A stretch of DNA of 64,000 nt from Paraburkholderia sp. PGU19 (GTDB taxonomy: Bacteria > Pseudomonadota > Gammaproteobacteria > Burkholderiales > Burkholderiaceae), in assembly GCF_013426915.1 (NCBI RefSeq), contig NZ_AP023180.1, positions 620,001 to 684,000 on the forward strand, given 5' to 3'. Of this stretch, positions 14,962 to 28,074 are shown piece after piece. How positions within the stretch are numbered: position 1 is the stretch's first letter; every line of letters begins with the position of its first letter. The notes beneath the pieces are model-generated. The model did not search any database. It was not told the DNA's origin and worked only from the letters and a program-made list of their open reading frames with translations. Both the position numbers and the translations under genes were made by a program.

Positions 14962-15186
14962 CTGACGTCTCCGTGTAAGTGGGAACGTCCATTCAAGCAG
15001 CGCGCTCGCGCAAAGAGAACTGACATTTCGTGCGAAGGTGTCCAGGCGGCTTACGCTATCGATAGGCGGATTCGTGCTATGCGAGCGGCACGCAGGCTCG
15101 AAGGAACAGGGAAGCGTTGCTTTCCCACCTCGGCACATGATGCGTCGGCGGGAAAGCGCGGTGGATCGAGAGAAAGTGATGGACCC

Positions 15187-15642
15187 TCAGCCCGGCTGAA
15201 TCGGTACCAACTTCAGTTTGCGCCGCAGACTCCGCGTGTCGTGCATGTCGTACGCTTCGGGCATCTGCCACGCCGCACGCAACAATTGAATGAACGCCGC
15301 TTCGCCTTCGGACAGATGTCCGTCTGCGTGCGCGCCTTCGTTGCACAGCGCGATGACTTCGCGGCGCAGCCGCCAGTCCTTGACGTCCTGCGCAAGACAA
15401 AAAATCACGGCAGGGTCGAGGCGGCAGGTATCGCCCCAGTTCAGATAGGCCGTCGACGTCAGGTCCTCGCACATCTGCTGCATGACGGCGAGCAGTTGTC
15501 CGCGGTTCATCTTCAGGCGCGCTTCCATCCCGTAACGATCCAGTGCTTCGAGTTCGTCGACGCCGACGTGTCCGTCCGACAGCAGGCAGGCGGCCACGAT
15601 GCGGGCGGCTGCCTCGGGACTGTCGCTTCGATAGTGACGCAT
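15187..15642 (-). CDS. TerB-family (tellurite-resistance-like) protein
   Basis: 151 aa, all-helical, with the TerB-like pattern of acidic turns (LLSDGHVGVDELEALDRYGM and GAHADGHLSEGEAAFI) that resemble metal-binding helix-loop-helix repeats. TerB proteins are linked to envelope or membrane stress. AAGGAG lies just before ATG. It lies 42 nt downstream of the DUF3563 gene on the same strand, so both should share the minus-strand promoter at 16007-16038. No other ter genes adjoin, although a TerC-family gene occurs at 51 kb. Confidence 0.75.
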   Translation of the reverse strand: MRHYRSDSPEAAARIVAACLLSDGHVGVDELEALDRYGMEARLKMNRGQLLAVMQQMCEDLTSTAYLNWGDTCRLDPAVIFCLAQDVKDWRLRREVIALCNEGAHADGHLSEGEAAFIQLLRAAWQMPEAYDMHDTRSLRRKLKLVPIQPG

Positions 15643-15684
15643 TTCAGATCTCCTTTGCTTCGATTCGATTGACTGCGCGGTGCA

Positions 15685-15870
15685 TTACGCGATCCAGTCG
15701 CGCGGCGCGAGGTTCGAATTCACGTGAAACGGATAGCTGCTGTCGTCGAGCATGCGCTGGCGGCGTTCGAGATCGGCGAGGTCCGTCGACGATGCGAGCC
15801 ATGCTTCGCGTTCGCTGTCGCGCGAGGACGTGAACAGCGTGCCGAGACGGTGTGCGAGCTTGTTGAACAT
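15685..15870 (-). CDS. DUF3563 family protein, 61 aa
   Basis: A short protein matching the DUF3563 pattern: an N-terminal MFNKLAHRLGTLF helix, then EREAWLASSTDLADLERRQR and a C-terminal PFHVNSNLAPRDWIA. The function is unknown. AAGGAG precedes the ATG. It is the first gene of a minus-strand unit with TerB and lies downstream of a CTCATT-N5-CTAATT promoter shared in design with five others in this window. Confidence 0.8.
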   Translation of the reverse strand: MFNKLAHRLGTLFTSSRDSEREAWLASSTDLADLERRQRMLDDSSYPFHVNSNLAPRDWIA

Positions 15871-16006
15871 GATGTGCTCCTTCAGTAGTGCGATAAGGAA
15901 ACGCGCTGGCGAATGGGATTCGCACGGCTGCGTGACTGCGATGCGCGGGCTTTGTGCTGCTTGCCGTTTCGTCGCTTTCGACCATGACGCTGCATCGACG
16001 GGATGA

Positions 16007-16038
16007 ATCGTAGGCGCGGTGAATTAGCGGGAAATGAG
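16007..16038 (-). promoter_or_regulatory. PmrA/QseB-like box and -10, facing DUF3563-TerB
   Basis: Read on the minus strand: CTCATT-TCCCG-CTAATT (16038-16022), 9 nt, then TACGAT as -10 (16012-16007). This is the same architecture as five other promoters in the window. The direct repeat replaces the -35, as in promoters activated by OmpR/PmrA-type regulators. Confidence 0.65.
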
Positions 16039-16056
16039 TGCGTCAGGCGTGTGATC

Positions 16057-16087
16057 AATCGTTATGTCACGGTGTGCCATAACGATT
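16057..16087. promoter_or_regulatory. 31-bp near-perfect palindrome between divergent promoters
   Basis: AATCGTTATG (16057-16066) and CATAACGATT (16078-16087) are exact inverted repeats, and inner CAC/GTG extends the symmetry with a single mismatch. A T-run follows on the plus strand. The centre (16072) is midway between the two divergent direct-repeat boxes. A dimeric regulator site is more likely than a terminator here, because genes diverge on both sides. Confidence 0.55.
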
Positions 16088-16106
16088 TTTTGGCCTGATT
16101 CAGGGG

Positions 16107-16138
16107 CTAATTCTTTGCTCACTCTCGGCGCACAGAAT
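16107..16138 (+). promoter_or_regulatory. PmrA/QseB-like box and -10, facing the PY-rich gene
   Basis: CTAATT-CTTTG-CTCACT (16107-16123), 9 nt, then CAGAAT (16133-16138). The box ends 67 nt before ATG 16191. Same layout as the other five boxes. Confidence 0.65.
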
Positions 16139-16190
16139 GCGAACCAACCGATGCATCACTGACAGGGCATCGAATGTCGAGGAGAACAAC

Positions 16191-16466
16191 ATGAAAGGGA
16201 TTCGCCACATTGCAGTCGCCGCATTGCTCGGCTTGGGACTGGTGAGCGCCGCGCAGGCACACGTGTTCGTCGGCGTCGGGATTGGACCCGTTGCGCCTGT
16301 CGTGCCCGTCATGCCCGTCGTCTCCGTCGCGCCGTTGCCCGTGTATGCGCCGCCTGTGTATTACGCGCCGCCTCCGCCTGTGTACGCGCCGCCCGTCGTG
16401 GTCGGCTACTGGGGGCATCCGCACTATGCCTATCGCGGCTATTACGGCTATGGCTACTGGCGCTAG
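16191..16466 (+). CDS. Small exported Pro/Tyr/Val-rich protein, 91 aa
   Basis: A signal peptide (MKGIRHIAVAALLGLGLVSA, cleavage after AQA) is followed by a VGVGIGPVAP-VVPVMPV repeat and a PPVYYAPPPPVYAPP repeat, ending in HYAYRGYYGYGYWR. This composition is typical of surface or periplasmic low-complexity proteins of Burkholderia. The function is unknown. ATG 16191 has GGAG upstream; a longer frame begins before the promoter -10 and is rejected. It sits behind a two-component-type promoter box. Confidence 0.75.
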   Translation: MKGIRHIAVAALLGLGLVSAAQAHVFVGVGIGPVAPVVPVMPVVSVAPLPVYAPPVYYAPPPPVYAPPVVVGYWGHPHYAYRGYYGYGYWR

Positions 16467-16494
16467 GCAGACGGGGAGCGTGCCATAACGTGCG

Positions 16495-16526
16495 CTCATT
16501 TGTTTCTAATTTTCGATCTCTACGAT
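16495..16526 (+). promoter_or_regulatory. PmrA/QseB-like box and -10, facing the DUF4148 gene
   Basis: CTCATT-TGTTT-CTAATT (16495-16511), 9 nt, then TACGAT (16521-16526). The box ends 63 nt before ATG 16575. Confidence 0.65.
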
Positions 16527-16574
16527 GAACTTCATCGCAAGGCTCATCGAGCCAATAACCCGGAGGGAAACATC

Positions 16575-16883
16575 ATGAAAACGCTGATTCAGACGGCTGC
16601 AGTCGCTGTGTTGCTCGCACTGCCCATCGCCTCGTTTGCGCAAACCACGGCACCCGTCTCGCGTGCCGAAGTCGAAGCGCAACTCACACAACTGGAAAGC
16701 GCGGGCTACAACCCGATTGGCGACAAGGCGCACTATCCAGCGAACCTCGAAGCTGCGCAGGCGCGTCTCGACGCGCAGCACGCGGACGGATATGGCGGCG
16801 TCGCGGACGGCACGTCGCAAGACGGAGTGGCCTTCCATCCTCAATACGATGTCGGGATGAAGTCGATTTACGTCGGACATTGA
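16575..16883 (+). CDS. DUF4148 family exported protein, 102 aa
   Basis: A signal peptide (MKTLIQTAAVAVLLALPIAS, cleavage after SFA) and the DUF4148 pattern SRAEVEAQLTQLESAGYNP and HYPANLEAAQARL. Members are abundant small periplasmic proteins of Burkholderiales with unknown roles. GGAGGGAAACATC precedes the ATG. It is controlled by its own promoter with the shared direct-repeat box and is followed by a strong hairpin before the histidine kinase gene. Confidence 0.85.
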   Translation: MKTLIQTAAVAVLLALPIASFAQTTAPVSRAEVEAQLTQLESAGYNPIGDKAHYPANLEAAQARLDAQHADGYGGVADGTSQDGVAFHPQYDVGMKSIYVGH

Positions 16884-16942
16884 AGGGCCACTGAGGGCCA
16901 CTGAAGGGCCACCGACCCCGGCGACCAACCCGATATGAAACC

Positions 16943-16972
16943 GCGGGCGCGCAGAGAATTCTGCGCGCCCGC
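16943..16972 (+). terminator. Strong hairpin after the DUF4148 gene
   Basis: GCGGGCGCGCAGA pairs perfectly with TCTGCGCGCCCGC around GAAT. There is no U-run, so intrinsic termination may be weak. It separates the DUF4148 gene from the kinase gene. Short direct repeats of GGGCCACTGA precede it at about 16886-16912. Confidence 0.5.
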
Positions 16973-17136
16973 ATCATTGTCTCTACAACCAGAAGAGCGT
17001 GTAGTGCGGTGTAGAATCGGCTCGCCGAAAGGCTCGCCAATAAGGAAGCACCGCTGACCGCCAATGCAGTGTGGCACGTCAGCCCTGGCGTTCAATACCG
17101 TTAGCACAACTCTCACCGGACGGCACGCATCAGACC

Positions 17137-18465
17137 ATGTCCATGCCCAAGATCCGCTCCCTCAGAAATCAACTCGTGCTCGCCCTCTGTGTGCTGGTGA
17201 GCGTCGTCGGCGTGGTGCAGGGCATCAGCTCGTGGCAGCTTGCCAAAGCCGGCATGAGCGCGCTGCTCGATCTGCGTCTCGAACAGGTGGCCACGCGCCT
17301 GTATCACAGCGGCCTCGCCGATGCGCTGCCCACCACGCCCGCACGCGGCTCGCAGCCGGAGCGGGATGTCTATCTCACGGTCTGGAAGGACGGCATCGAT
17401 TCGCCTTACCGTTCGACCGACCCCTCACTCGCGTTGCCGCGCGAGGCCGAGCCGGGCTTCACGAATGCGATGGTGAACGGCGAAAACTGGCGTATCTACA
17501 CGCTGCGCGAGCCGTCGATGGTGGTCCAGGTCGCACAGCGTTCGCGCGTGCGCCAGGACCTCGCGGAAGCGCGCTCACTGAATACGCTGTGGCCGATGAT
17601 CGTGCTCGTGCCGCTGGTGTGGATCGCCGTGCTGCTCGTCGTGCGGCGCGCGCTGAGGCGCCTGACGCGGCTCGGCAGACAGGTACAGGCCATCGACATG
17701 GCGCATTTCGAGCAACTGTCGACCTCGGGCGTGCCGACGGAGATACGCCCGTTCATCCTGTCGATCAACACGATGATCGAACGGCTCGAACGGTCCATCG
17801 AGAGCGAGCGGAAGTTCATCGCCGACGCCGCGCATGAGCTGCGCACCCCGCTTACCGCGCTGCAGTTGCAGGCGGACAACCTGGCGCCGCATATCGCGCC
17901 CGGCAACCAGGAGCGCTTCCGCGAACTGCAAAGCGGCATCCGGCGCAGCGGCCGGATGATCGCGCAACTGCTGCGGCTCGCGCGCGCCGATGCGCCCATG
18001 AAGGCGGATACGCTGACGCGCGTCGACGTGTCGGAGGTGGTCGTCGATGCCGTGGCCGAAGTCCTGCCGATCGCGATGCAGCGCGGCATCGACATCGGCG
18101 CCGACGAGATGACGAGTGCGTTCGTGCGCGCGAACGACGCCGATATCGGCATTGCGCTGCGCAACCTGGTCAGCAACGCGATCCGCTACACGCCCGACGG
18201 CGGCAAGGTCGATCTGAGCATCCAGGTGCGCGACGGGAAGGTGTGGATCGAAGTGGTCGATAACGGGCCGGGCATCGACGAGGCGCTGCTGCCGCGCGTG
18301 TTCGACCGGTTTTTCCGGGCCAATGTGCAGATCGAGGGCAGCGGGCTCGGCTTGTCGATCGTGCAGGCCATCGTGAACCGGTATGGCGGGGAGGCGAGCC
18401 TGCGCAATCGTGCGGATGGGCAATCGGGGATCGTCGCGTCGATCGGTTTTCCGTCGGTGCCGTAA
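17137..18465 (+). CDS. Sensor histidine kinase (QseC/TctE-like)
   Basis: A 442-aa inner-membrane kinase. TM1 lies at about 10-30 and TM2 at about 150-172, with a roughly 120-residue periplasmic sensor of the 2CSK_N type between them. HAMP follows (about 175-220), then HisKA with H233 in AAHELRTPLTALQLQ. The HATPase domain has NLVSNAIRYTPDGG (N box), DNGPGI (G1) and GSGLGLSIV (G2). ATG 17137 is chosen because the membrane helix follows directly; in-frame upstream codons lack family character. Its likely partner is the response regulator at 18819, unusually placed downstream of the kinase and separated by a terminated transcript. Confidence 0.9.
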   Translation: MSMPKIRSLRNQLVLALCVLVSVVGVVQGISSWQLAKAGMSALLDLRLEQVATRLYHSGLADALPTTPARGSQPERDVYLTVWKDGIDSPYRSTDPSLALPREAEPGFTNAMVNGENWRIYTLREPSMVVQVAQRSRVRQDLAEARSLNTLWPMIVLVPLVWIAVLLVVRRALRRLTRLGRQVQAIDMAHFEQLSTSGVPTEIRPFILSINTMIERLERSIESERKFIADAAHELRTPLTALQLQADNLAPHIAPGNQERFRELQSGIRRSGRMIAQLLRLARADAPMKADTLTRVDVSEVVVDAVAEVLPIAMQRGIDIGADEMTSAFVRANDADIGIALRNLVSNAIRYTPDGGKVDLSIQVRDGKVWIEVVDNGPGIDEALLPRVFDRFFRANVQIEGSGLGLSIVQAIVNRYGGEASLRNRADGQSGIVASIGFPSVP

Positions 18466-18492
18466 GCAGTGCCATAAGCGATGCCATAAGCG
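18457..18492 (+). repeat. Three 12-nt direct repeats at the end of the kinase gene
   Basis: GTGCCGTAAGCA, GTGCCATAAGCG and ATGCCATAAGCG lie head to tail. The first copy contains the last two kinase codons and its TAA stop, and each later copy repeats an in-frame stop. It looks like local slippage duplication. Confidence 0.6.
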
Positions 18493-18500
18493 CGGTGTCG

Positions 18501-18532
18501 CTCATTCTTTGCTAATTCGCCGTGCCTAAGAT
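18501..18532 (+). promoter_or_regulatory. PmrA/QseB-like box and -10 in front of the candidate sRNA and response regulator
   Basis: CTCATT-CTTTG-CTAATT (18501-18517), 9 nt, then TAAGAT (18527-18532). This is the closest match of the set to a canonical -10. Transcription should start near 18539, just before a structured segment ending in an intrinsic terminator. This is a probable autoregulatory site of the two-component system. Confidence 0.68.
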
Positions 18533-18538
18533 GGGAAC

Positions 18539-18626
18539 TGTTGGAGCAGACCCCTCTGGTTCTGGCACGGCGATCGGTGCACGCCAGAATCCTTCGGCCG
18601 ACTGCGTAGGCAGTCGGCCTTTTTTT
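18539..18626 (+). ncRNA. Candidate ~88-nt small RNA or attenuator leader
   Basis: From the predicted start near 18539 to the terminator end at 18626. TTCTGGC (18560-18566) pairs with GCCAGAA (18583-18589), with possible inner GCAC/GTGC pairing. The intrinsic terminator follows at once. The unpaired 5' segment GGAGCAGACCCCTCT is a plausible seed. The size, terminal stem and U-run fit an Hfq-type sRNA driven by a response regulator. It could instead be a premature-termination leader for the regulator gene, which starts 192 nt further on. I recognise no Rfam family. Confidence 0.5.
18596..18626 (+). terminator. Intrinsic terminator before the response regulator gene
   Basis: GGCCGACTGC (18596-18605) pairs perfectly with GCAGTCGGCC (18610-18619), with loop GTAG, followed by seven T (18620-18626). 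It lies between kinase and regulator genes of the same direction, so it ends either the kinase transcript or a short RNA. The rest of the 18466-18818 gap shows no gene. Confidence 0.9.
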
Positions 18627-18818
18627 GTCGTCGATACCGAACGGTTTAGCCTGTGCGGGCTCGGTTATCATGCGATCTGGCTGGTGCGCGGGAGTGGGGC
18701 GCGCCGGCGGCCACGGCCCGGAATCGCAAACCGCCGCCCGCGTGCAGAGCGCCCCGCGGCTGATTGGTCCTTGCGCTGCGGCCAACGACAACGCTTCGTT
18801 TGCTGTGGACACGACATC

Positions 18819-19493
18819 ATGCGAGTGCTACTGGTTGAAGACGATCTGCAGATTGGCCAAAGTCTGATGCGCGCGCTGCAGGACGCTGACTACAGCGTCG
18901 ACTGGGTGCGCGACGGCAATGCGGGCAGCGCGGCCATCGCTGCCGCCGAATACACCGTCGTCCTGCTCGATCTCGGCTTGCCGGGCATGGGCGGCATCGA
19001 ATTGCTGAGGTCGGCCCGCGCGGCGGGCAACACCGTGCCCGTGCTGATCCTCACCGCGCGCGACGACCTTGAAGCGCGCGTGCAGGGCCTCGACGTCGGC
19101 GCCGACGACTACGTGCTCAAACCCTTCGACGTGCCCGAGCTGATGGCGCGCATGCGCGCCGTGTTGCGGCGCAAGGCGGGCTACGCATCGTCGCGTCTCG
19201 GCGACGACGCGCTGAACCTCGATCTCGACAAGCGCACGCTGTGCTGCAATGGGGTGTCGTCGGTATTGTCGGCGCGCGAGTTCGCGCTGATGCTCGCGTT
19301 TCTCGAACGGCCCGGCACGATCCTGTCGCGCGACCAGCTGGAGGACAAGCTGTATGGCTGGGGCAAGGAAGTCGAGAGCAATGCCGTCGACGTGCTCATT
19401 CACTCGGTGCGCAAGAAGTTCGGACAGTCGGTGATTCGCAATGTACGCGGGCTCGGCTGGACCGTCATGCTCGGCGAAGCGCCGAAAACCTGA
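18819..19493 (+). CDS. OmpR-family response regulator (PmrA/QseB-like)
   Basis: 224 aa. The receiver domain (1-115) has acidic pocket EDD at 7-9, phospho-acceptor D51 (VVLLDLGLPG), and conserved T/K in LILTAR and YVLKPF. A winged-helix output domain (about 125-220) has RDQLEDKLYGWGKEVESNAV, the recognition region of the PmrA/QseB group. That group typically binds CTTAAT-N5-CTTAAT-like direct repeats, matching the six boxes in this window. It is paired with the histidine kinase at 17137. ATG 18819 directly opens the receiver MRVLLVEDD. Confidence 0.92.
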   Translation: MRVLLVEDDLQIGQSLMRALQDADYSVDWVRDGNAGSAAIAAAEYTVVLLDLGLPGMGGIELLRSARAAGNTVPVLILTARDDLEARVQGLDVGADDYVLKPFDVPELMARMRAVLRRKAGYASSRLGDDALNLDLDKRTLCCNGVSSVLSAREFALMLAFLERPGTILSRDQLEDKLYGWGKEVESNAVDVLIHSVRKKFGQSVIRNVRGLGWTVMLGEAPKT

Positions 19494-19505
19494 GCGCCGC
19501 GCGTC

Positions 19506-19537
19506 CTCATTCTTCCCTCACTCTGCATCGACACAAT
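19506..19537 (+). promoter_or_regulatory. PmrA/QseB-like box and -10 facing the 91-aa gene
   Basis: CTCATT-CTTCC-CTCACT (19506-19522), 9 nt, then CACAAT (19532-19537). The box ends 65 nt before ATG 19588, the same distance as at the other small genes. Confidence 0.62.
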
Positions 19538-19587
19538 CTCCTCGACCGCACAGCAATCACGCTGAAACGCGCGGCGAGGAGAGAGCG

Positions 19588-19863
19588 ATGAAAGGTATTC
19601 CCGAAGTCAACGTAGTTGTCGAGCGCAACGATGTGTTCAACGACACGCCGGCCGCATTCGATAGGTACGATCCCAGCACCCGTACGCGGATCGCCGTGCA
19701 TATCGACTGCACGCCGCAAAACGCCGCGTGTGCGAACCTGCGCGCGCCCGTCTATGCCGCGCGCGCTTACCGCATGCAGCCCTCGCGGTGCCGCATCGGC
19801 GCGCGTGTGCGCTATCCGCGTTGCGCCGGCTGGGGCGACGGTTTTGGTTCGACGCAACGCTGA
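19588..19863 (+). CDS. Hypothetical protein, 91 aa, behind the shared promoter
   Basis: Unrecognised. The N-terminal half (MKGIPEVNVVVERNDVFND, then TRTRIAVHIDC) looks protein-like. The C-terminal half is Arg/Ala/Cys-rich and of low quality, so the gene could be decaying or rapidly evolving. GGAGAGAG lies before ATG 19588. The hydrolase gene starts 9 nt after its stop, implying cotranscription from the box at 19506. Confidence 0.5.
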   Translation: MKGIPEVNVVVERNDVFNDTPAAFDRYDPSTRTRIAVHIDCTPQNAACANLRAPVYAARAYRMQPSRCRIGARVRYPRCAGWGDGFGSTQR

Positions 19864-19872
19864 GGCGCGGCC

Positions 19873-20880
19873 ATGTCGAAGCATCCGGCTATCGAAGGCC
19901 TCGCGGATCGCATGACCGCAAGCTGGCAGGCGCGTGTCGTTCTCTGTGCGATGCCGCTGCTGGTCGGGCGGCGCGCTCCCGCACGTTGCGCACCGCCCGA
20001 TGTCACGCAGGTGCGCACGCGCTCGCGCCTGCTGTCGTTGCTGGGCGCGTGGCTCGCGGCGCTTCTCAATCCCCGTTCACGCAGGGTGCGCGATGGCGGT
20101 CTCGACGGGCTGTGGACTTTGCCGTCGACCCGACCCGGACCGATCGCGAACGCGATTCTGTACCTGCACGGCGGCGGCTATTACTTTGGATCGCCTGCGA
20201 CCCATCGCGCGGTGACGACGGCGCTCGCCGCGCATAGCGGCGCGCCCGTGTTCGCGCCCGACTACCGGCTCGCGCCCGAGCATCCGTTTCCCGCCGCGCT
20301 CGAAGATGCGTTGCACGCCTACCGCACGCTGATCGCGCGCGGCATCGCGGCGAACTCGATCGTCGTCGCGGGCGACTCGGCGGGCGGCGGGCTCGCGCTC
20401 GCGTTGCTGGCCGCGCTGCGCGACGCGGGCGACGCCTTGCCGGCGGGTGCCGTGCTGTTCTCGCCATGGTCCGATCTGACGACGACATGGCGCGCCGCGC
20501 GCGGCACAGGGCCAACGACACGGGTCGCGATGCAGCACGCCGCGCAGTTGTACATCGGCGACGCTAGCGCGTGGGACCCGTATGTGTCGCCGGCGCGCGG
20601 TGAACTACACGATCTGCCGCCCATCCATCTGCAGATCAGCGACAGCGAAGCGATGTACGAGGATGCGCTCTCGCTGGCGGCGCGCCTCAATCGCGCGGGC
20701 GTGACGGTGCAGGTTGCGCAATGGCATGCGATGCCGCACGCGCTGCCGTGTTTCGCGCCGTTTCTGCCGGAAGCGAATCAGGCATTGCGGCAGGCGGCGA
20801 TATTCGTCAGGCGCTGCTACGCGACGCGCAAACGCGAGGCTGCGGCTGCCGTCGTCGCGTGCGAGGGGGACGGCACATGA
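19873..20880 (+). CDS. Alpha/beta hydrolase (hormone-sensitive-lipase type)
   Basis: A 335-aa esterase of the HSL/GDXG group. The oxyanion motif is HGGG (99-102, in YLHGGGYYFGS). The nucleophile is S169 in AGDSAGGG. APDYRLAPEHPFPAALED is the conserved link between them. The acid is probably in SEAMYEDAL and the His in WHAMPHA. A hydrophobic N-terminal stretch (about 21-66) may associate with membrane. It probably acts on short acyl esters or lipids. It lies 9 nt after the 91-aa gene and so is likely under the same two-component promoter. Confidence 0.85.
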   Translation: MSKHPAIEGLADRMTASWQARVVLCAMPLLVGRRAPARCAPPDVTQVRTRSRLLSLLGAWLAALLNPRSRRVRDGGLDGLWTLPSTRPGPIANAILYLHGGGYYFGSPATHRAVTTALAAHSGAPVFAPDYRLAPEHPFPAALEDALHAYRTLIARGIAANSIVVAGDSAGGGLALALLAALRDAGDALPAGAVLFSPWSDLTTTWRAARGTGPTTRVAMQHAAQLYIGDASAWDPYVSPARGELHDLPPIHLQISDSEAMYEDALSLAARLNRAGVTVQVAQWHAMPHALPCFAPFLPEANQALRQAAIFVRRCYATRKREAAAAVVACEGDGT

Positions 20881-20881
20881 C

Positions 20882-20908
20882 AAAAAAACGGACGACCTGA
20901 GCCGTCCG
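20882..20908 (-). terminator. Minus-strand terminator of the MFS gene
   Basis: On the minus strand CGGACG (20908-20903) pairs with CGTCCG (20894-20889), followed by seven T (A-run at 20882-20888 on the plus strand). It lies just after the hydrolase stop on the other strand. Confidence 0.7.
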
Positions 20909-20957
20909 CGTCAATGGCCAATACTGAACACTGGCCTCTGGAAAGCCTCTGCGAAAC

Positions 20958-22211
20958 TCAGGCGCGCGCCGGTTCGACGGGTGCGTGGACCGTATCGTCG
21001 ATCGGGAAATGCAGCAGCGCGGCGAACAGTCCCGCCAGTGCCGTCGCGGCCCAGATCAGCGTGTACGAGCCCGTCGCGTCGAACACGTAGCCGCCGAGCC
21101 ACGCGCCGAGGAACGAACCTAACTGGTGGCTGAGAAACACGACGCCGAACAGCGTGCCGAGATGCCGCGTGCCGAACACCTTGGCGATCAGGCCGCTCGT
21201 GAGCGGCACGGTGCCGAGCCACGTCAGGCCCATCACGGCGGCGAACAGCACGACGGAAGCCGTCGACTTCGGCAGCAGGAAGAACACGGCAATCGTCGCC
21301 CCGCGAATCAGATACAGCCAGCCGAGCACATGCTGCTGACGGAAGCGCCCGCCAAGCCAGCCGCACGCCCAACTGCCCGCCATGTTGAACAGGCCGATCA
21401 GCGCGAGGGCGGTGGCACCGAGTCCCATCGGCATGTGGCACAAGCTCAGATAGCCGGGCAGGTGCGTGGCGATGAACGCAAGCTGGAAGCCGCAGGTGAA
21501 GAAGCCGAGCGTCAGCAGCCGGTAGCCGCGATGACGCATGGCGTGCGCGAGCGTCTCGCGCAGCGGCGGGACAGTGGTTGCTGCGGGTGATGCAGCCACA
21601 TGCGGCGCGCCGACTTCCCTGCGGCGGTCGAGCAGCATGCCGAAGGGCGCGGCGACCAGCATCAGGAAGGCGAGCGCGTAGAGCGAAGTCGATATGCCCG
21701 ACGTTTCGCGCACCAGTTGCGCGAACGGCACCATCAGCACCTGTCCCAGCGAGCCGCCCGCGCTCGCGATGCCCATCGCCATGCTGCGCTGTTCGGGCGT
21801 CGCGGCGCGCCCGACGGCCGTTAGCACGACGCCGAACGTCGTGCAGCTCACACCGATGCCGACCAGCAGCCCAAGCCCCGCAATCAACGCGATACCGGAC
21901 GGCGAACCGGCCGCGAGCGCGAGACCCGCAGCGAAGGTGGTGGCGCCGAACGCGACGACGGGCGCGGCGCCGTAGCGGTCGGCGGCGGCGCCTGCGAACG
22001 GCTGCGCGAAGCCCCACACGAGATTGTGCAGTGCGATCGCGAAGGCCACGAGCGTGACGGGCAGGCCGCGATCGTACGAAAATGGCCCGATGAAGAGACC
22101 GAAGGTCTGCCGGATGCCCATGGCCGCGCTGATGATCAGCGCGGCGGCGACGATCACGTAAAACGTCGGGTTTTTAAGGGGCGCTGCGTAAGCGGGTTTG
22201 ACCGTTGACAT
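20958..22211 (-). CDS. MFS transporter (oxalate/formate-like, monocarboxylate family)
   Basis: 417 aa, 12 predicted TM helices with a central loop at about 200-225. The opening (AALIISAAMGIRQTFGLFIGP) and PFAGAAADRYG between TM2 and TM3 fit the OFA/monocarboxylate-porter group. The substrate is unknown. AGGAGGAAACGAAAC precedes the ATG. The LysR gene lies upstream on the same strand, 116 nt away, and may control it. Confidence 0.82.
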   Translation of the reverse strand: MSTVKPAYAAPLKNPTFYVIVAAALIISAAMGIRQTFGLFIGPFSYDRGLPVTLVAFAIALHNLVWGFAQPFAGAAADRYGAAPVVAFGATTFAAGLALAAGSPSGIALIAGLGLLVGIGVSCTTFGVVLTAVGRAATPEQRSMAMGIASAGGSLGQVLMVPFAQLVRETSGISTSLYALAFLMLVAAPFGMLLDRRREVGAPHVAASPAATTVPPLRETLAHAMRHRGYRLLTLGFFTCGFQLAFIATHLPGYLSLCHMPMGLGATALALIGLFNMAGSWACGWLGGRFRQQHVLGWLYLIRGATIAVFFLLPKSTASVVLFAAVMGLTWLGTVPLTSGLIAKVFGTRHLGTLFGVVFLSHQLGSFLGAWLGGYVFDATGSYTLIWAATALAGLFAALLHFPIDDTVHAPVEPARA

Positions 22212-22327
22212 GTTTCGTTTCCTCCTGGCGGCATCCTCGCAGCAGCCAGCAGGCGCGACAAACGAAAAGTTTTCGGCGACAGATGAAGAAAATTCACTCG
22301 CAGGGGGAGCGGGGCGCTGGTGGGTTT

Positions 22328-23269
22328 CTAGCGGGTGGCCGCCGTGAAGTGCGCGGCTTCGCCCGTTGAAGCAGCGTCATCGAACGCATGCGCTTCGTGA
22401 AGCAGCCAGCGCTTGAATGCCTGCAGATCAGGCCGCTCGTCCGTGCCTTCCGCGCTGACCAGCCAGTACGCCGTCTTCGCATCGACGGTCGGCGTGCTGG
22501 CTTCGACGAGCGTGCCCGCGTCCAGCTCGCGGTTCACCAGCGGCCGTCTGCCGATCGCGACGCCCATGCCCGTCGTGGCCGCTTCGAGCGCCAGCTGGAT
22601 CGTGTCGAAACGCACGCCGCCCGACGCGTCGATATCGTGGACACTCGCACCGTCCAGCCACGCCTGCCAGTCTTCGCTCGCGGTGTCGACATGGATCAGC
22701 GTCGCGCGGCGCAAGTCGACGTTGCCATGTGTATCGCACAATGTGTCGCGATACGCGGGGCTGCAAACGGGCACGAGCCGCTCGCCGAACAGCCGGCTCC
22801 AGTCGCTGCCTGGCACGGGACCACGGCTCAGGCGGATGCCGAAGTCGAAGCCGTCGACGGGAAAGCCTACCTGGCGGCGCGAGGTATCGACGGAAACGTC
22901 GATGTTCGGCCACTGCGCGCGAAACTCGAACAGGCGCGGCACGAGCCAGCGCATCGCGAGCGTCGGCGCGCAGCTCACCGTCACCGTGCGATGCGTGCGG
23001 TTGTCGGGCAGCCGCTGCGTGCCAAGCGCGATCAGCGAAAACGCTTCGGCAATGTAGGGGAAATACTGCTCGCCGGCTGGCGTCAGCGACAGCTTGCGCG
23101 GCTCGCGCACGAACAGCGCGATCCCAAGCGATTCTTCGAGCGCGACGATGCCGTGGCTGATGGCGCTTGGCGTCACGTTCAGTTCGGCGGCGGCGAGCTT
23201 GAAGCTGCCGTGCCGCGCCGCTGCCTCGAAGAAGCGCAGCGAGTTCAGCGGGGGCAGGCGAAGCGGCAT
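22328..23269 (-). CDS. LysR-family regulator (GcvA-like)
   Basis: 313 aa. The N-terminal winged helix (LNSLRFFEAAARHGSFKLAA, then LNVTPSAISHGIVALEESLG) has the GcvA-type start PPLNSLRFFEAAAR. The effector domain (about 92-300) begins VTVSCAPTLAMRWLVPRLF. It is on the same strand as, and upstream of, the MFS gene, which is its most likely target. No divergent partner exists on the other side. Confidence 0.87.
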   Translation of the reverse strand: MPLRLPPLNSLRFFEAAARHGSFKLAAAELNVTPSAISHGIVALEESLGIALFVREPRKLSLTPAGEQYFPYIAEAFSLIALGTQRLPDNRTHRTVTVSCAPTLAMRWLVPRLFEFRAQWPNIDVSVDTSRRQVGFPVDGFDFGIRLSRGPVPGSDWSRLFGERLVPVCSPAYRDTLCDTHGNVDLRRATLIHVDTASEDWQAWLDGASVHDIDASGGVRFDTIQLALEAATTGMGVAIGRRPLVNRELDAGTLVEASTPTVDAKTAYWLVSAEGTDERPDLQAFKRWLLHEAHAFDDAASTGEAAHFTAATR

Positions 23270-23421
23270 GGCGCAACCTTTGGGCGTCGTGGGTGAAGGG
23301 AAGTGGTTTCGCGCGAGGAACTCGGCACAGCCCGCATGGCGCGGCTAGAGACTAGCGGCGCACCGTGCGTGCCGCAAGCCGCGAACGTTGCGCCAGGACA
23401 TGCCGCGCCGTTCGCGCGCGC

Positions 23422-23652
23422 TCAAGGGCAGCACGAGCAGCCGCGATGCCGCATGCCATATCCGCCTTCGCCTTCGGACGCGCCGCCCGACGAACCGCCC
23501 GACGCGCTGCCGAGCAACGCCGGCGCGCCGACCCGCACGCGTTCCGCGGACGTGCCGCAGCGAGGACAACTGGCCGGTTCGTCGCGTTCGGCGATGCGCC
23601 GCGCTGCTTCAAACGTGCCGCATTCGGCACACTCGTAGTCGTATACAGGCAT
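23422..23652 (-). CDS. FmdB-type zinc-ribbon protein, 76 aa
   Basis: MPVYDYECAECGTFEAARR followed by CPRCG gives two CxxC knuckles of the FmdB (CxxC_CXXC_SSSS) family. The C-terminus is Gly/Ser-rich and ends with a Cys pair. Members are annotated as putative regulators, with no proven role. The start at 23652 is set by the family N-terminus; the longer open frame upstream has no similarity. It lies downstream of the HNH gene on the same strand. Confidence 0.82.
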   Translation of the reverse strand: MPVYDYECAECGTFEAARRIAERDEPASCPRCGTSAERVRVGAPALLGSASGGSSGGASEGEGGYGMRHRGCSCCP

Positions 23653-23711
23653 GACTTGTTCCGTTGTTGTCGACACGACGGGCACCACGCGCCCGATGCG
23701 CGCGACACGTT

Positions 23712-24032
23712 TCAGCGCTTGCGCCGGCTGCTGCGCGTACGCTCGTGAAACCCATCGGGCTTCGTGCGTACCCAGTTCACGAAAGCTCTGACTTGTTCGT
23801 TTTCGAGCAGGCGATCGACGGATGCGTAGCTTGTCGCCAGTTCGCGCTCCGAAAAGAGCGCATGCAACTGCCGATGGCAGATCCGGTGCAGCGCGACCGT
23901 TTCGCGGCCGCCTTCGGCCTTCGGAACCAGATGATGCTCGTCGCGCTGATCGGCTGGAATCGCGCGGCCGCACAACGGACACGCTTCTTCCGCCGGCGGA
24001 CGATACCAGGACTCCACTTCGCGCTTTACCAT
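23712..24032 (-). CDS. HNH endonuclease domain protein
   Basis: A 106-aa small HNH-type protein. ACPLCGRAIP supplies a CxxC zinc pair, DEHHLVPKAEGG holds the catalytic His pair, and LHRICHRQLHALF the metal-binding His/Cys end. The C-terminus is basic (RTRSSRRKR). Start 24032 (MVKREVESW) is preferred; 24056 is an alternative. Free-standing HNH proteins can be nicking or restriction-type nucleases. It faces away from the SLATT gene, with 122 nt between them. Confidence 0.75.
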   Translation of the reverse strand: MVKREVESWYRPPAEEACPLCGRAIPADQRDEHHLVPKAEGGRETVALHRICHRQLHALFSERELATSYASVDRLLENEQVRAFVNWVRTKPDGFHERTRSSRRKR

Positions 24033-24154
24033 CGATGCCCCTGCGTATCCCGTCATCCTACCAACTTTCGCGGCGCTCACTCGTCGCCGCGTGCCGCCGC
24101 GTGCGCAAGCCGCGATGCTATGCTGGCCTCTCTTCGTCAAAGGAAGGCAAGGGC

Positions 24155-24748
24155 ATGACGATGGTCGATACGCATGCGGAACCGGGCGCCGGTGTGGGCT
24201 CGCGCCCCGATCCCGCTTTGAGCGGGCGCGCCGAATACCGGCCGCCCGTCAACGAGGACGAGTTGCTGTTGAAGTGGATTCGCCGCGCGCGCGAGTCGCA
24301 GAAGAGCCACTACGACATGGCCGATCTGCTTGCCGCGCGCAACCGGATGTTCGGCATCGGCGTGACGGTCGTGTCGGCCGTGGTGGGCACGACGGTGTTT
24401 CTGTCGCTGGTGGCGTCGGCGGATTCGCGATGGGTGCGGCTCGTCGTCGGGCTGGTGAGCATTGCGGCGGCCGTGTCGGCGGCGTTGCAGACGTTTCTGC
24501 GCTATGCGGAGCGTGCCGAGCAGCATCGCTCGGCGGGCGCGCGCTATGGCGCGGTGCGGCGCAGGCTGGAAGCGATTTACGCAGGCGACCCCGGCGCGCG
24601 TGACGGCCGCTACGTGAGTGAAGTGCGCGACATCCTCGACCGGCTCGCGGAAGACTCGCCAAGCGTGCCGCCGCGCGTGTTCCGGCGCACGCAGGAAACC
24701 TTGCGCGTCGCGGCGTTGCAAGGCCGCGACGAAGTCCGCTGGGAATGA
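24155..24748 (+). CDS. SLATT-domain two-TM membrane protein
   Basis: 197 aa. A disordered start is followed by LLLKWIRRARESQKSHYDMA, then two membrane helices (about 68-86 and 92-110: GIGVTVVSAVVGTTVFLSL and VRLVVGLVSIAAAVSAAL). After these comes the diagnostic LQTFLRYAERAEQHRSAGARY. This is the SLATT pattern (SMODS/SLOG-associated two-TM effector), proposed by comparative genomics to form membrane pores in anti-phage or nucleotide-signalled defence. No SMODS cyclase, SLOG or reverse transcriptase partner is adjacent, so this is an orphan effector. AAGGAAGGCAAGGG precedes the ATG. It is convergent with the PTS-type gene. Confidence 0.78.
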   Translation: MTMVDTHAEPGAGVGSRPDPALSGRAEYRPPVNEDELLLKWIRRARESQKSHYDMADLLAARNRMFGIGVTVVSAVVGTTVFLSLVASADSRWVRLVVGLVSIAAAVSAALQTFLRYAERAEQHRSAGARYGAVRRRLEAIYAGDPGARDGRYVSEVRDILDRLAEDSPSVPPRVFRRTQETLRVAALQGRDEVRWE

Positions 24749-24773
24749 ACGGGCAAGGTGACCGACGCGGGCG

Positions 24774-25724
24774 TCAAGCCCGCAGCCGCGCGCTGGACGC
24801 GTCGCCACGCGCAGCGGGATGAGGCATCAGGGAAGGGATGTCTGCAGGCTCGGCGGCGCTGCTGAACAGCCGGCACACTTCGCTTGCACTGTCGCACGCG
24901 TGCAGGCGGTCGCGAAAATGCTGGTCGCAAAAGCGCTGCGCGACATCCGCGAGCAGATTCAGATGCATCGTGTTCGCGCCTTCGGGCACCAGCAGCGCAA
25001 TCACGTCGCGCACAGGCTTCGCGTCCGGCGCGTCGAAGTCGAGCGGCACGCGCGGGCGCACGTACAGTACGACAGCCGTCAGCAAGCCCGCGATCTGGCT
25101 ATGTGGTACGGCGACGCCTTGTCCGAGCCCCGTCGAGCCGAGCGCTTCGCGCGTGTTCAATCCGTCGATCACCTGGCCGGCGGGCACGCCATAGTGTGTT
25201 TCGCAAAACACGCCGAGTTGCGCGAACAGCGCCGCGCGATCGGCGACGGCCGTGTCGAGCAGCACGTTGCCGGGGCTCAGCAGACGGTCGAGCGTGTCGG
25301 CGTCGTCGTCGCTGGTTTTGACGGGTGGCTTCGCGGGGCGCAGCGCGCTCGCCGCCTGCGCCCACGAGGTTGCGCGCAGCAGATCGCGCCAGCCGTCCGT
25401 CGGCGTGTCGGGAATCTCGAACAGATGACCGAACTGCGCGGCAGGCGCGATACGCGTCACCTGCTGGATCGCGCTGTTCACCGCGTCTTTCGGCAGATAC
25501 AAGGAAAGCTGCACGCGCTCGGTATGCGGCAGCGTTGCGATGCGGATGGTCCACGGCTGGCCCGCGCAATCGCGGGTCAGCGCACGGCGCAGCGGTGTAA
25601 CGTGTTGCGCGTCGAGCGTTACGCGCATCATCACGCTGCGGCCGGACGCGCGGCGCCGCGCAGTATCGTCGTGATGGTGGTGAACGCCGAAAATGGCGCG
25701 CAGAATGGCTCGGGTCTTCGTCAT
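24774..25724 (-). CDS. PTS EIIA (PtsN-like) domain protein with extra N-terminal domain
   Basis: 316 aa. Residues about 145-290 form an EIIA fructose/nitrogen-type domain with phosphorylatable H208 in GQGVAVPHSQ, preceded by NTREALGSTGLG. Residues about 30-115 are a separate domain (MMRVTLDAQHVTPL, then RVQLSLYLPKDAV) I cannot name. A short HHHHDD run lies at 15-20. No permease or EI/HPr gene adjoins, so a regulatory role is likelier than sugar transport. GGAGAAAAGGGC precedes the ATG. Confidence 0.78.
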   Translation of the reverse strand: MTKTRAILRAIFGVHHHHDDTARRRASGRSVMMRVTLDAQHVTPLRRALTRDCAGQPWTIRIATLPHTERVQLSLYLPKDAVNSAIQQVTRIAPAAQFGHLFEIPDTPTDGWRDLLRATSWAQAASALRPAKPPVKTSDDDADTLDRLLSPGNVLLDTAVADRAALFAQLGVFCETHYGVPAGQVIDGLNTREALGSTGLGQGVAVPHSQIAGLLTAVVLYVRPRVPLDFDAPDAKPVRDVIALLVPEGANTMHLNLLADVAQRFCDQHFRDRLHACDSASEVCRLFSSAAEPADIPSLMPHPAARGDASSARLRA

Positions 25725-25922
25725 GCCCTTTTCTCCAGACTGACAACGAAGCTAGCGTAGCGCGATTCGCATTAAAACCGAATAAAAAAACGGGGCGCCC
25801 GAATGTGGGGTGACGCACGCATTGCAGCGCGCAATGGTGTTAAAGACGTGCCTGTGGCGCCGCGCTTTGCCCATGAAGAATGCCCGCAGAATCGATACTC
25901 ACGAACCACGGAGACTTCATTC

Positions 25923-26618
25923 ATGTTGACGCTGTATTCGTACCCCGATCTGTTCGGCGTCGCCGACAACAACGCGTTCGGCCTGAAGGTCTACGCGTTC
26001 ATGCGGCTGTGCGGGCTCGATTTCGAGCACCGGCATATTCTCGATACGTCGCACGCGCCGCGCGGCCAGTTGCCGTATCTGTCCGACGATGGCGAGACGA
26101 TCGGCGACAGCGACGCGATCATCGCGTATCTGAAGGACAAGTACGATCTGCGGATCGACAGCGCGCTATCGCAGGGTCAGGCGAATCTCGACTTCCTTGT
26201 GCGCCGCACACTCGACGATCTCTATTGGCCGATGAGCTATTCGCGCTGGCGCGACGATCGTTATTGGCCGGCGTTTCGCGATGCCGTGCTGCGCGAGCAT
26301 GCCGACGTCACCGCGAACGATCTCGAAGCGGCGCGCGAGTACAACAGACAGCGCTATCACTATCAGGGCATCGGCCGTTACGAGCCGGATCAGGTGTACG
26401 CGCGGGGTATCGGCGATTTGCGGGTGGTGGCCGATCTGCTTGGCGACGACGGCTTCGTGTTCGGCCCCGATCCGGCGACCATCGACGCCGCGATCTACGG
26501 CTTTGTCGCGAACATTTATTTCTATGAAATCGACACGCCGCTGAAGGCGTATGTGATGTCGCGTCCCGAACTGGTACGCCATTGCCGCGCAATGCATGAG
26601 CGTATCGCGAGGGCTTGA
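25923..26618 (+). CDS. Glutathione S-transferase-like protein (FAX/metaxin type)
   Basis: 231 aa. A thioredoxin-fold N-terminus (MLTLYSYPDLFGVADNN) lacks the usual catalytic Ser/Cys-Pro pair. GETIGDSDAIIAYLKDKYD is the glutathione-site motif (Ser-Asp), and an all-helical C-terminal domain contains FVFGPDPATIDAAIYGF. This layout resembles failed-axon-connection/metaxin-like GSTs. ATG 25923 opens the domain. It is divergent from the EIIA gene. The substrate is unknown. Confidence 0.8.
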   Translation: MLTLYSYPDLFGVADNNAFGLKVYAFMRLCGLDFEHRHILDTSHAPRGQLPYLSDDGETIGDSDAIIAYLKDKYDLRIDSALSQGQANLDFLVRRTLDDLYWPMSYSRWRDDRYWPAFRDAVLREHADVTANDLEAAREYNRQRYHYQGIGRYEPDQVYARGIGDLRVVADLLGDDGFVFGPDPATIDAAIYGFVANIYFYEIDTPLKAYVMSRPELVRHCRAMHERIARA

Positions 26619-26766
26619 AACGCGGGCGGTAAGGAACTCGAACGCGGCATCGGCTGTCATCGGATAGGATTGACCTTCGTCAAAAGATCGAAGCGGAACG
26701 ATCGACATACACCCGCTACGGGATCAACCACGGGTATCCACCATGGCATCAAGCAAGGGAGCAACA

Positions 26767-27363
26767 ATGACAATGCAACGCCGCCGATTCATCGCCATGA
26801 CCACGACCGCGCTCGCTACGGGCGGACTGGCGCTTGCGGGCTGCACGACCACAGGGCCGTCGTCGGATGCGTCGCCTGAAGCGAACACGGGTAAGCGCAG
26901 GTCGATCGACGCGGACGTCGACGGAACACTCACGCGTCTGTTCAACACGATCGGCGGCTCGCGTGAGCTTGCCGACAAGTCGCGCGGCATCCTCGTCTTC
27001 CCTTCGGTGATCTCGGCGGGCTTCTGGTTCGGCGGGCAGTACGGACAGGGCGCACTGCGCGTCGGCGGGCAGACGTCGGGCTATTACAGCATCGCGGCGG
27101 CGTCGTTCGGCCTGCAGATCGGCGCGCAGTCGAAGGCGATCATCATGCTGTTCATGACGGACGACGCGCTTAACGAGTTCACGCGCAGCCAGGGGTGGTC
27201 GGCGGGCGTCGATGCGTCGGTTGCGCTCGTGAACGTCGGCGCGAACGGCAATGTCGATACGTCGACCGCGATGAGTCCCGTCGAAGCGTTCGTGCTCACG
27301 AACGCCGGGCTGATGGCGGGTGTATCGCTGGAAGGCTCGAAGATTTCCCGCCTGATCATCTGA
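26767..27363 (+). CDS. SYLF (Ysc84) domain lipoprotein
   Basis: 198 aa. MTMQRRRFIAMTTTALATGG and the lipobox LALAGC give a lipoprotein (Cys at about 25). The SYLF domain (about 55-198) has SRGILVFPSVISAGFWFGGQYG and ends GVSLEGSKISRLI, the lipid-binding fold seen in Burkholderia BPSL1445-type proteins. The likely location is the outer-membrane inner leaflet or the periplasm. AAGGGAGCAACA precedes ATG 26767. The universal stress protein gene follows after 179 nt with its own promoter. Confidence 0.87.
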   Translation: MTMQRRRFIAMTTTALATGGLALAGCTTTGPSSDASPEANTGKRRSIDADVDGTLTRLFNTIGGSRELADKSRGILVFPSVISAGFWFGGQYGQGALRVGGQTSGYYSIAAASFGLQIGAQSKAIIMLFMTDDALNEFTRSQGWSAGVDASVALVNVGANGNVDTSTAMSPVEAFVLTNAGLMAGVSLEGSKISRLII

Positions 27364-27472
27364 CCGCATTCGTCCGATTGCATGTCACGGATGGCGCGCC
27401 CGGCGCCATCCAGTTTCCCTCGAATCCTCAGTTCAATCGCGCTGCGCATCTGCCGCAGCGGGCCGTGCCTCG

Positions 27473-27504
27473 CTCATTTATCGCTAAGTCTCGCGTCGCA
27501 TCAT
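27473..27504 (+). promoter_or_regulatory. PmrA/QseB-like box and -10 facing the universal stress protein gene
   Basis: CTCATT-TATCG-CTAAGT (27473-27489), 9 nt, then CATCAT (27499-27504). Box end to ATG is 53 nt. Same architecture as the cluster at 16-19.5 kb, but 8 kb away. Confidence 0.55.
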
Positions 27505-27542
27505 GCATGACACGGAACAACGCAACGACGGAGGCACACGAA

Positions 27543-28073
27543 ATGATCAGGCACATTCTGGTAGCGGTCGGCACGAACCCGGACAACAGCGTATTGAAGA
27601 CCGCCATCGACAAGGCCCGCCACACAGGCGCACGGCTGACGGCCGTGTATGTCGTCGACACGATGCCCTGGTGGGCGATGGCGGGTGTCGAGTACGGCTG
27701 CTTCGACTCGATACAGATGGTCGAAGAACTGGAGCGCACGGTCGAGCGCCGCTGCAAGGAAGTGTTCGAACTCGACGCATGGGACATTCATACGCAGGCC
27801 GTCACGGTACCGCTCGAAGGCGGCAGCGTGGGCCGCAGAATCGCGCGGTTCGCCGATGAACTCGACGCGGACATGATCGTCGTCGGCGCGGGGCAGGGTT
27901 CGAGATGGCGTTTCTGGGAAGAGCGGATGAGCGACGTGGTCGCGCGCTGCACGCGTCGCGCGGTGCTGGTCGCAGCAACCGTCGATGCGCGCCGCGACGC
28001 GCCCGCAAGCCAGGACGATCATCGCCACCAGCAGCCACGGGCGAGCGCACCCGCTCGCGCTCAAACGCTTTGA
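27543..28073 (+). CDS. Universal stress protein (UspA family)
   Basis: 176 aa. MIRHILVAVGTNPDNSVLKTA opens a Usp fold. The C-terminal loop VVGAGQGSRWRFWEERMS replaces the classical G-2x-G-9x-G(S/T) ATP motif with a divergent version, so ATP binding is uncertain. The last 25 residues are a polar tail (DHRHQQPRASAPARAQ). GGAGGCACACGAA lies before ATG 27543. Its stop is 1 nt from the stop of the convergent Hsp70 gene. Confidence 0.85.
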   Translation: MIRHILVAVGTNPDNSVLKTAIDKARHTGARLTAVYVVDTMPWWAMAGVEYGCFDSIQMVEELERTVERRCKEVFELDAWDIHTQAVTVPLEGGSVGRRIARFADELDADMIVVGAGQGSRWRFWEERMSDVVARCTRRAVLVAATVDARRDAPASQDDHRHQQPRASAPARAQTL

Positions 28074-28074
28074 G

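Follow-up and report, generated by a model that had tools for sequence, protein, structure and literature searches.

We describe six promoter elements in a 64,000-nucleotide stretch of the Paraburkholderia sp. PGU19 genome (hereafter the window; C2:620001-684000 of a five-contig, 11.25-Mb genome). They are very probably promoters of class II, lacking a -35, that belong to a single two-component regulon and are activated by a response regulator of the OmpR/PhoB family encoded among them. The regulator (18819..19493, plus strand; 224 amino acids) contains Response_reg and Trans_reg_C domains, and a domain search of the product of the upstream gene (17137..18465, plus strand; 442 amino acids) identified a sensor histidine kinase with 2CSK_N, HisKA and HATPase_c domains. 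Both assignments agree with a preliminary description of the window, which had placed an OmpR-family regulator and its kinase there.

Layout of the promoter elements

All six 32-nucleotide elements consist of a CTMAYT-like half-site (M, A or C; Y, C or T), five nucleotides, a second half-site, nine nucleotides and a -10 hexamer of the form (T/C)ANNAT. The box reads CTCATT-N5-CTAATT at 16007..16038 on the minus strand (-10 TACGAT), an element facing a DUF3563 gene and the gene at 15187 and kept in orthologous loci; at 16495..16526 on the plus strand (TACGAT), facing a DUF4148 gene; and at 18501..18532 on the plus strand (TAAGAT), facing a gene for a small RNA (sRNA). The remaining elements, also on the plus strand, are CTAATT-N5-CTCACT with CAGAAT at 16107..16138, facing the gene of a Pro/Tyr-rich exported protein, CTCATT-N5-CTCACT with CACAAT at 19506..19537, facing genes for a 91-amino-acid protein and a hydrolase, and CTCATT-N5-CTAAGT with CATCAT at 27473..27504, facing a universal stress protein gene. 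The strict pattern CTMAYT-N5-CTMAYT fits five of the six, and the universal stress protein element has one deviating half-site, CTAAGT. Scanning the whole window for boxes with up to two mismatches and YANNAT at 9 nucleotides returned these six elements and no others; the position, strand, half-site gap and distance to the -10 given for each in the preliminary description were confirmed.

None of the six has a recognizable -35, as had also been claimed, the best match to TTGACA at spacers of 15-19 being only 2-3 of 6 letters. In sequence layout the elements correspond to class II promoters, with the box over the -35 position at a fixed distance from the -10 and no -35. We also observed GTGCCATAA or TGCCATAA stretches at 16074-16083, 16480-16489, 18469-18478 and 18482-18489, upstream of the boxes at 16107, 16495 and 18501, and these may form a second conserved element.

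Distribution of the box within the genome

Over the 11.25 Mb we counted 12 strict boxes and 5 occurrences of the reversed pattern; five of the 12 boxes lie in the window, clustered within 3.5 kb. Of the perfect boxes, 9 of 12 have YANNAT at offset 9, and none has it elsewhere between offsets 0 and 35 (background measured in the window: 0.30% for YANNAT, 3.1% for NANNNT). This agrees with the earlier statement that the match in spacing is hard to obtain by chance. Among the seven perfect boxes outside the window, from which the rule was not defined, four have YANNAT at 9 nucleotides and one more has TAATCT. The signal resides in how the boxes cluster and in their constant spacing to the -10. 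We estimate about 11 promoters for the regulon in this genome, and the earlier count of six is too low.

The proposed genome-wide enrichment of the motif was observed for perfect boxes and was lost when one mismatch was allowed (95 matches versus 164 for the reversed pattern); a looser box pattern gave 19 matches versus 39. We therefore rejected the idea that the box alone is enriched with one mismatch. Also rejected was the possibility that most of the 83 one-mismatch matches are real sites: among 80 distinct contexts (identical ones counted once, C5:845226 left out), four have YANNAT at 9 nucleotides, one of them the universal stress protein site, and at most two have it at any other offset. 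A box-like array at C2:1382487-1382525 contains four CT(C/T)ATT units in perfect 11-bp phase with no -10 at 9 nucleotides, and is possibly due to chance or to coding.

Co-occurrence of box and regulator among genomes

We searched 144 genomes of the genus for the regulator and obtained a match at E 1e-78 in 64, with 37 at 78% identity or more and 27 at 61-67% only. Loci of about 20 kb each were compared: 20 around regulators of at least 78% identity, chosen from the 37 genomes (374 kb in total, two cut by contig ends), eight around homologs of 62-66% and three around paralogs. In the 20 loci, NANNNT stood at 9 nucleotides in 57 of 57 perfect boxes, 48 of these being YANNAT, and no other offset had it in more than 7. 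At least one perfect box was present in 19 of the 20 loci. The eight loci around 62-66% homologs gave NANNNT at 9 nucleotides in 14 of 14 perfect boxes (YANNAT in 3), with boxes in seven of the loci. Gene order is reshuffled among the orthologous loci, and the sites remain before the genes for DUF3563, Pro/Tyr-rich, DUF4148 and universal stress proteins.

Mean raw counts of perfect boxes per genome were 10.2 for the 37 genomes with the regulator at 78% or more, 6.3 for the 27 with a 61-67% homolog only, and 2.9 for the 80 others, while the reversed-pattern control gave 4.7, 6.3 and 4.0. Between the first and the regulator-less group, a one-sided Mann-Whitney test returned P 5e-14 for the box and P 0.24 for the control. 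A second set of loci came from named genomes, mainly Paraburkholderia, among the matches listed, and overlaps the 144 genomes (e.g. L349 and L073). Here all 15 loci with a regulator of at least 79% identity had sites, a -10 accompanying 38 of 38 perfect boxes. Of 64 loci whose homolog reached at most 62%, seven had boxes (-10 with 9 of 11). One of the 15 belongs to Dyella monticola, a gammaproteobacterium, whose 83% regulator is accompanied by boxes; its regulon core was possibly acquired by horizontal transfer. The scan of this genome and its relatives, suggested as a check in the preliminary description, supports a regulon of this regulator, as the boxes track it over the 144 genomes and persist in shuffled loci. 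Because boxes and regulator co-occur in this way, the regulator in question is very probably the 18819..19493 product, and the earlier assignment, made from the window's sequence, gains support.

Several observations weigh against this reading. The per-genome counts are irrespective of genome size and, the genomes being related by descent, phylogenetically non-independent; in the 61-67% homolog group the boxes equal the reversed control, so that the count test is uninformative there. Loci L087 and L094 have no perfect box. Within the PGU19 genome, the perfect boxes at C2:1382487 and C3:1272795 lack a -10, the one at C1:1886320 has TAATCT instead, and the box is not enriched at one mismatch or fewer. 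Among the DUF3563 copies examined, 12 of 20 extra ones and all 24 core ones lack the element. In genome G147 a site resembling the one before the AMP-binding enzyme gene described below was found about 3 kb from a 71% paralog (L105), and paralogs may therefore share sites. Finally, activation rather than repression is deduced from the lack of a -35.

Identity of the regulator and kinase

The regulator belongs to the OmpR/PhoB family, scoring 89.8 bits for PF00072 (cut-off 30.2) and 61.6 bits for PF00486 (cut-off 26.2). The best NCBIfam models were PmrA (213 bits, against an equivalog cut-off of 330 for NF007928) and QseB (208 bits, against 345), and the best PDB sequence match was BasR (PmrA). 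The kinase likewise fell below the cut-offs for QseC (219.6 versus 475 bits) and for a PmrB-type kinase (164.3 versus 314 bits). The earlier label "PmrA/QseB-like" is therefore appropriate as a resemblance and not as family membership.

The PGU19 genome contains at least 95 sequences that match the regulator at E 0.001. The closest paralogs among those listed are 53-54% identical and have a different box: the C3:1809303 and C4:11659 paralogs carry CTAAGT-N5-CTAAGT (CTAAGTCAAATCTAAGT), 9 nucleotides and TAGTAT just upstream. The same geometry, with CTAATT-N5-CTAATT (or CTAACT), was observed beside homologs of about 50-60% identity in Actinobacillus, Bergeriella, a Herbaspirillum bin and other metagenome bins. 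The spacing of box and -10 near distant homologs and own paralogs indicates a trait of a wider regulator group that is not unique to this regulator. By eye, the C3:1809303 and C4:11659 paralogs are each divergent from genes resembling an RND efflux operon.

Proposed mechanism and alternative explanations

In the proposed mechanism, kinase 17137 would phosphorylate regulator 18819, a dimer of which would bind the two CTMAYT half-sites head to tail over the place of the missing -35, and the bound regulator would then recruit sigma70 RNA polymerase. A paralogous OmpR-family regulator could instead bind the boxes, their neighborhood to 18819 being coincidental. The abundance of paralogs in this genome and the box geometry shared by PmrA/QseB-like regulators, including the C3 and C4 paralogs, leave room for this explanation, but the boxes follow the regulator of at least 78% identity over the 144 genomes and surround it in 19 of the 20 loci, and the nearest listed paralogs have a different box. 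We consider it improbable.

It is about as doubtful that the regulator is a repressor, with phosphorylation turning the genes off, or on by release. The box does cover the -35 position in 6 of 6 cases, as a repressor site might, but with no recognizable -35 the promoters look activator-dependent, and a fixed 9-nucleotide spacing is expected of polymerase contact and unneeded for repression. A third possibility, that an alternative sigma factor recognizes the 32-nucleotide element and no DNA-binding regulator takes part, seems very improbable to us. Rigid spacing between two conserved blocks would suit such a promoter, but the upstream block repeats in tandem every 11 bp, like the PmrA boxes described in PMC3973317, the -10 is sigma70-like, and the occurrence of the element tracks an OmpR-family regulator. 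Activation of these promoters by the 18819 regulator thus remains the reading we favor. The many small exported or envelope proteins among the targets suggest an envelope-stress response.

Relation to described systems

The PmrA box consists of two tandem head-to-tail 6-bp half-sites 5 bp apart (PMC3973317, PMC4660055). The present system resembles the PmrA (BasR) regulon in having an OmpR/PhoB-family regulator and tandem half-sites 5 bp apart (PMC3973317). It differs in the half-site, which is of the CTTAAT/CTTAAG type there and CTMAYT here, the letters differing at positions 3 and 5. By family annotations, no lipid A modification gene was recognized among the roughly 11 targets. QseBC is similar in that the QseB and QseC scores are among the best family scores here; however, these lie far under the cut-offs, and in the present locus an sRNA gene separates the kinase gene from the regulator gene that follows it.

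No description of this regulon was found in a search of titles and abstract openings, with most subscription journals outside its coverage, and passages of PMC13037405 contain nothing on it. The layout is of a known kind, while the regulon gene set, the half-site and the linked sRNA look new. The analysis provides a defined regulon for an apparently uncharacterized two-component system of the Paraburkholderia group and an exact promoter rule with which any genome can be scanned, and it gives the families DUF3563, DUF4148 and DUF6622 a shared regulatory setting.

An sRNA encoded in the two-component locus

The 18501 promoter had been described as facing both a candidate sRNA and the regulator. 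We assign it to the sRNA, whose strong terminator lies about 190 nucleotides before the regulator start, so that the promoter may control the sRNA without reaching the regulator. The conserved sRNA (18539..18626, plus strand) is ncS54-like and about 88 nucleotides long, its 5' end being placed from the -10 of the promoter. It contains an unpaired CCCCUCU seed (18551-18557), a hairpin (18558-18591) and a terminator hairpin (18596-18619) followed by a T-run, and folds better than its shuffles (z -2.97). The match to ncS54 (RF02871) reached 33.2 bits (E 2e-4), below the Rfam gathering threshold of 43, and places it outside that family as defined. We gathered 17 distinct related sequences and dropped one as incomplete. 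In the resulting alignment CCCCTCTG is kept in 16 of 16, a constancy partly built in by the gathering pattern, which contained CCCCT(C/T)TG, and two pairs of the terminator stem show compensatory changes.

A model built from regulator-linked copies was searched over the 144 genomes, and the best 30 matches were examined, more than 100 weaker ones lying outside. Eighteen of them (86-107 bits) have a box with a -10-like hexamer at 9 nucleotides (13 perfect, 5 with one mismatch), and all 18 have CCCCTCTG; seventeen are on the regulator's contig and one (G123) is at a contig end. Of the copies on the regulator's contig, 17 of 18 have the box, the exception (G084; 64.6 bits, other seed) having decayed together with its promoter. 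The 11 lower-scoring, ncS54-like relatives (52-63 bits) read CTCAGG where the seed would end; none has a box (0/11) and none is on a contig with a listed regulator match (0/11). RF02871 matches at E 0.001 were present in all 144 genomes, often in several copies, and genomes G004 and G017 have 10-11 ncS54-like matches each at that threshold.

The window sRNA and ncS54 both have a CU-rich 5' stretch, a GGUUCUGGC-type hairpin and a terminator. Their seeds differ (CCCCUCUG in the window sRNA, CUCUCAGG in ncS54), and the box-bearing promoter is absent from the 11 relatives examined. By its sequence, the window sRNA seems to have arisen by duplication of a core sRNA and to have diverged since, acquiring a new promoter and seed. 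According to PMC5688073, ncS54 was found in B. cenocepacia and is 3.1-fold up in biofilm. A relative of this orphan Burkholderia sRNA family is here tied to a specific regulator. S17 (Bordetella pertussis) and the double-hairpin RNAs of RF02278 share the C/U-rich 5' site, stem-loops and terminator, and are predicted to pair with ribosome-binding regions (PMC11722255); unlike the window sRNA, S17S is produced when RNase E processes a precursor, and the S17 gene is flanked by BP3151 and coq7, outside any two-component locus. RF02278 had no match in window positions 15000-29000 up to E 1.

Candidate targets of the sRNA

The sRNA probably base-pairs via its CCCCUCU seed with ribosome-binding sites. 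One candidate target is the glycine-zipper lipoprotein gene at C2:1887394, which has a boxed promoter. This gene's ribosome-binding site reads AGAGGGG, the complement of the seed; among the 13 closest copies, 12 retain this sequence. Thirty genomes were searched for lipoprotein copies: all 16 that carry the box-bearing sRNA possess an extra one, and the other 14 are single-copy. A box was found at 15 of 16 examined lipoprotein copies of the 16 sRNA genomes (a count that excludes their remaining core copies) and at 0 of 14 copies in the single-copy genomes.

We tentatively consider that an ncS54-like core sRNA was duplicated into the locus, came under the control of the two-component system and took on the new seed CCCCUCUG, by which it might tune the regulon that controls it. 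The regulator would turn on both the sRNA and the second lipoprotein copy, and pairing of the seed with the latter would make an incoherent feed-forward loop; this is possible rather than likely. Pairing energies of the sRNA with 14 translation starts were not distinct from those of mononucleotide shuffles, which did as well in 37 of 300 cases for the lipoprotein and 10 of 300 for DUF4148 (the universal stress protein start used was 21 nucleotides too far downstream). Two lipoprotein copies at 63-64% identity have CAAGGGG, the compared genomes are related by descent, and purine-rich ribosome-binding sites are common, all of which weigh against the loop. As the duplicated sRNA seemingly gained both promoter and seed, this locus allows a direct test of how a regulon comes under sRNA control.

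Genes facing the elements and further targets

On the minus strand, the DUF3563 protein (15685..15870; 61 amino acids) scored 72.8 bits for PF12086 against a gathering threshold of 26.9. Downstream of it lies the gene of a 151-amino-acid protein (15187..15642, minus strand) with relatives near the regulator in many orthologous loci; it had been labeled TerB, a label that we drop, as no Pfam match was found at E 0.001. The other products are encoded on the plus strand. The Pro/Tyr-rich protein (16191..16466; 91 amino acids) has a signal-like N-terminus by eye and no Pfam match, and the DUF4148 protein (16575..16883; 102 amino acids) matched PF13663 with 52.6 bits against a cut-off of 27. Element 19506 faces an open reading frame for a 91-amino-acid protein with no Pfam match (19588..19863) and an alpha/beta hydrolase of the hormone-sensitive-lipase type (19873..20880; PF07859, 179.2 bits), for which the corresponding NCBIfam models match below their cut-offs. 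The universal stress protein (27543..28073) scored 61.6 bits for PF00582, its start being slightly shifted in the Pfam search and in the comparison of orthologous loci.

In addition to the lipoprotein gene, boxed promoters outside the window precede genes for an AMP-binding enzyme (C2:1115794), a 59-amino-acid protein followed by an alpha/beta hydrolase (C2:1461925) and a DUF6622 protein (C3:1634345), and a second DUF3563 gene (C1:1886320; PF12086, 42.1 bits) has a perfect box with TAATCT at the -10. Besides the roughly 11 promoters, further one-mismatch sites with YANNAT at 9 nucleotides are located at C2:1114035, C1:3119025 and C4:622793.

DUF3563 copies and the element

No paper on DUF3563 was found in a literature search with most subscription journals outside its coverage. 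DUF3563 copies averaged 4.3 in 24 regulator-bearing genomes (104 matches) and 2.1 in 24 others (51 matches). Among 30 loci in the bearing genomes, the element was present at 6 of 6 regulator-linked copies and 0 of 24 core copies, and the idea that all DUF3563 genes belong to the regulon was rejected. In the regulator-less genomes, 0 of 30 loci (of the 51 matches) had a box with zero or one mismatch, and one had a two-mismatch box without a -10. Extra copies elsewhere in the bearing genomes had the element in 8 of 20 cases, seven with perfect boxes; these 20 were hand-picked from the remaining 74, omitting regulator-adjacent copies and a common 53-amino-acid copy. A 68% paralog is located about 6 kb from one of the eight (L207).

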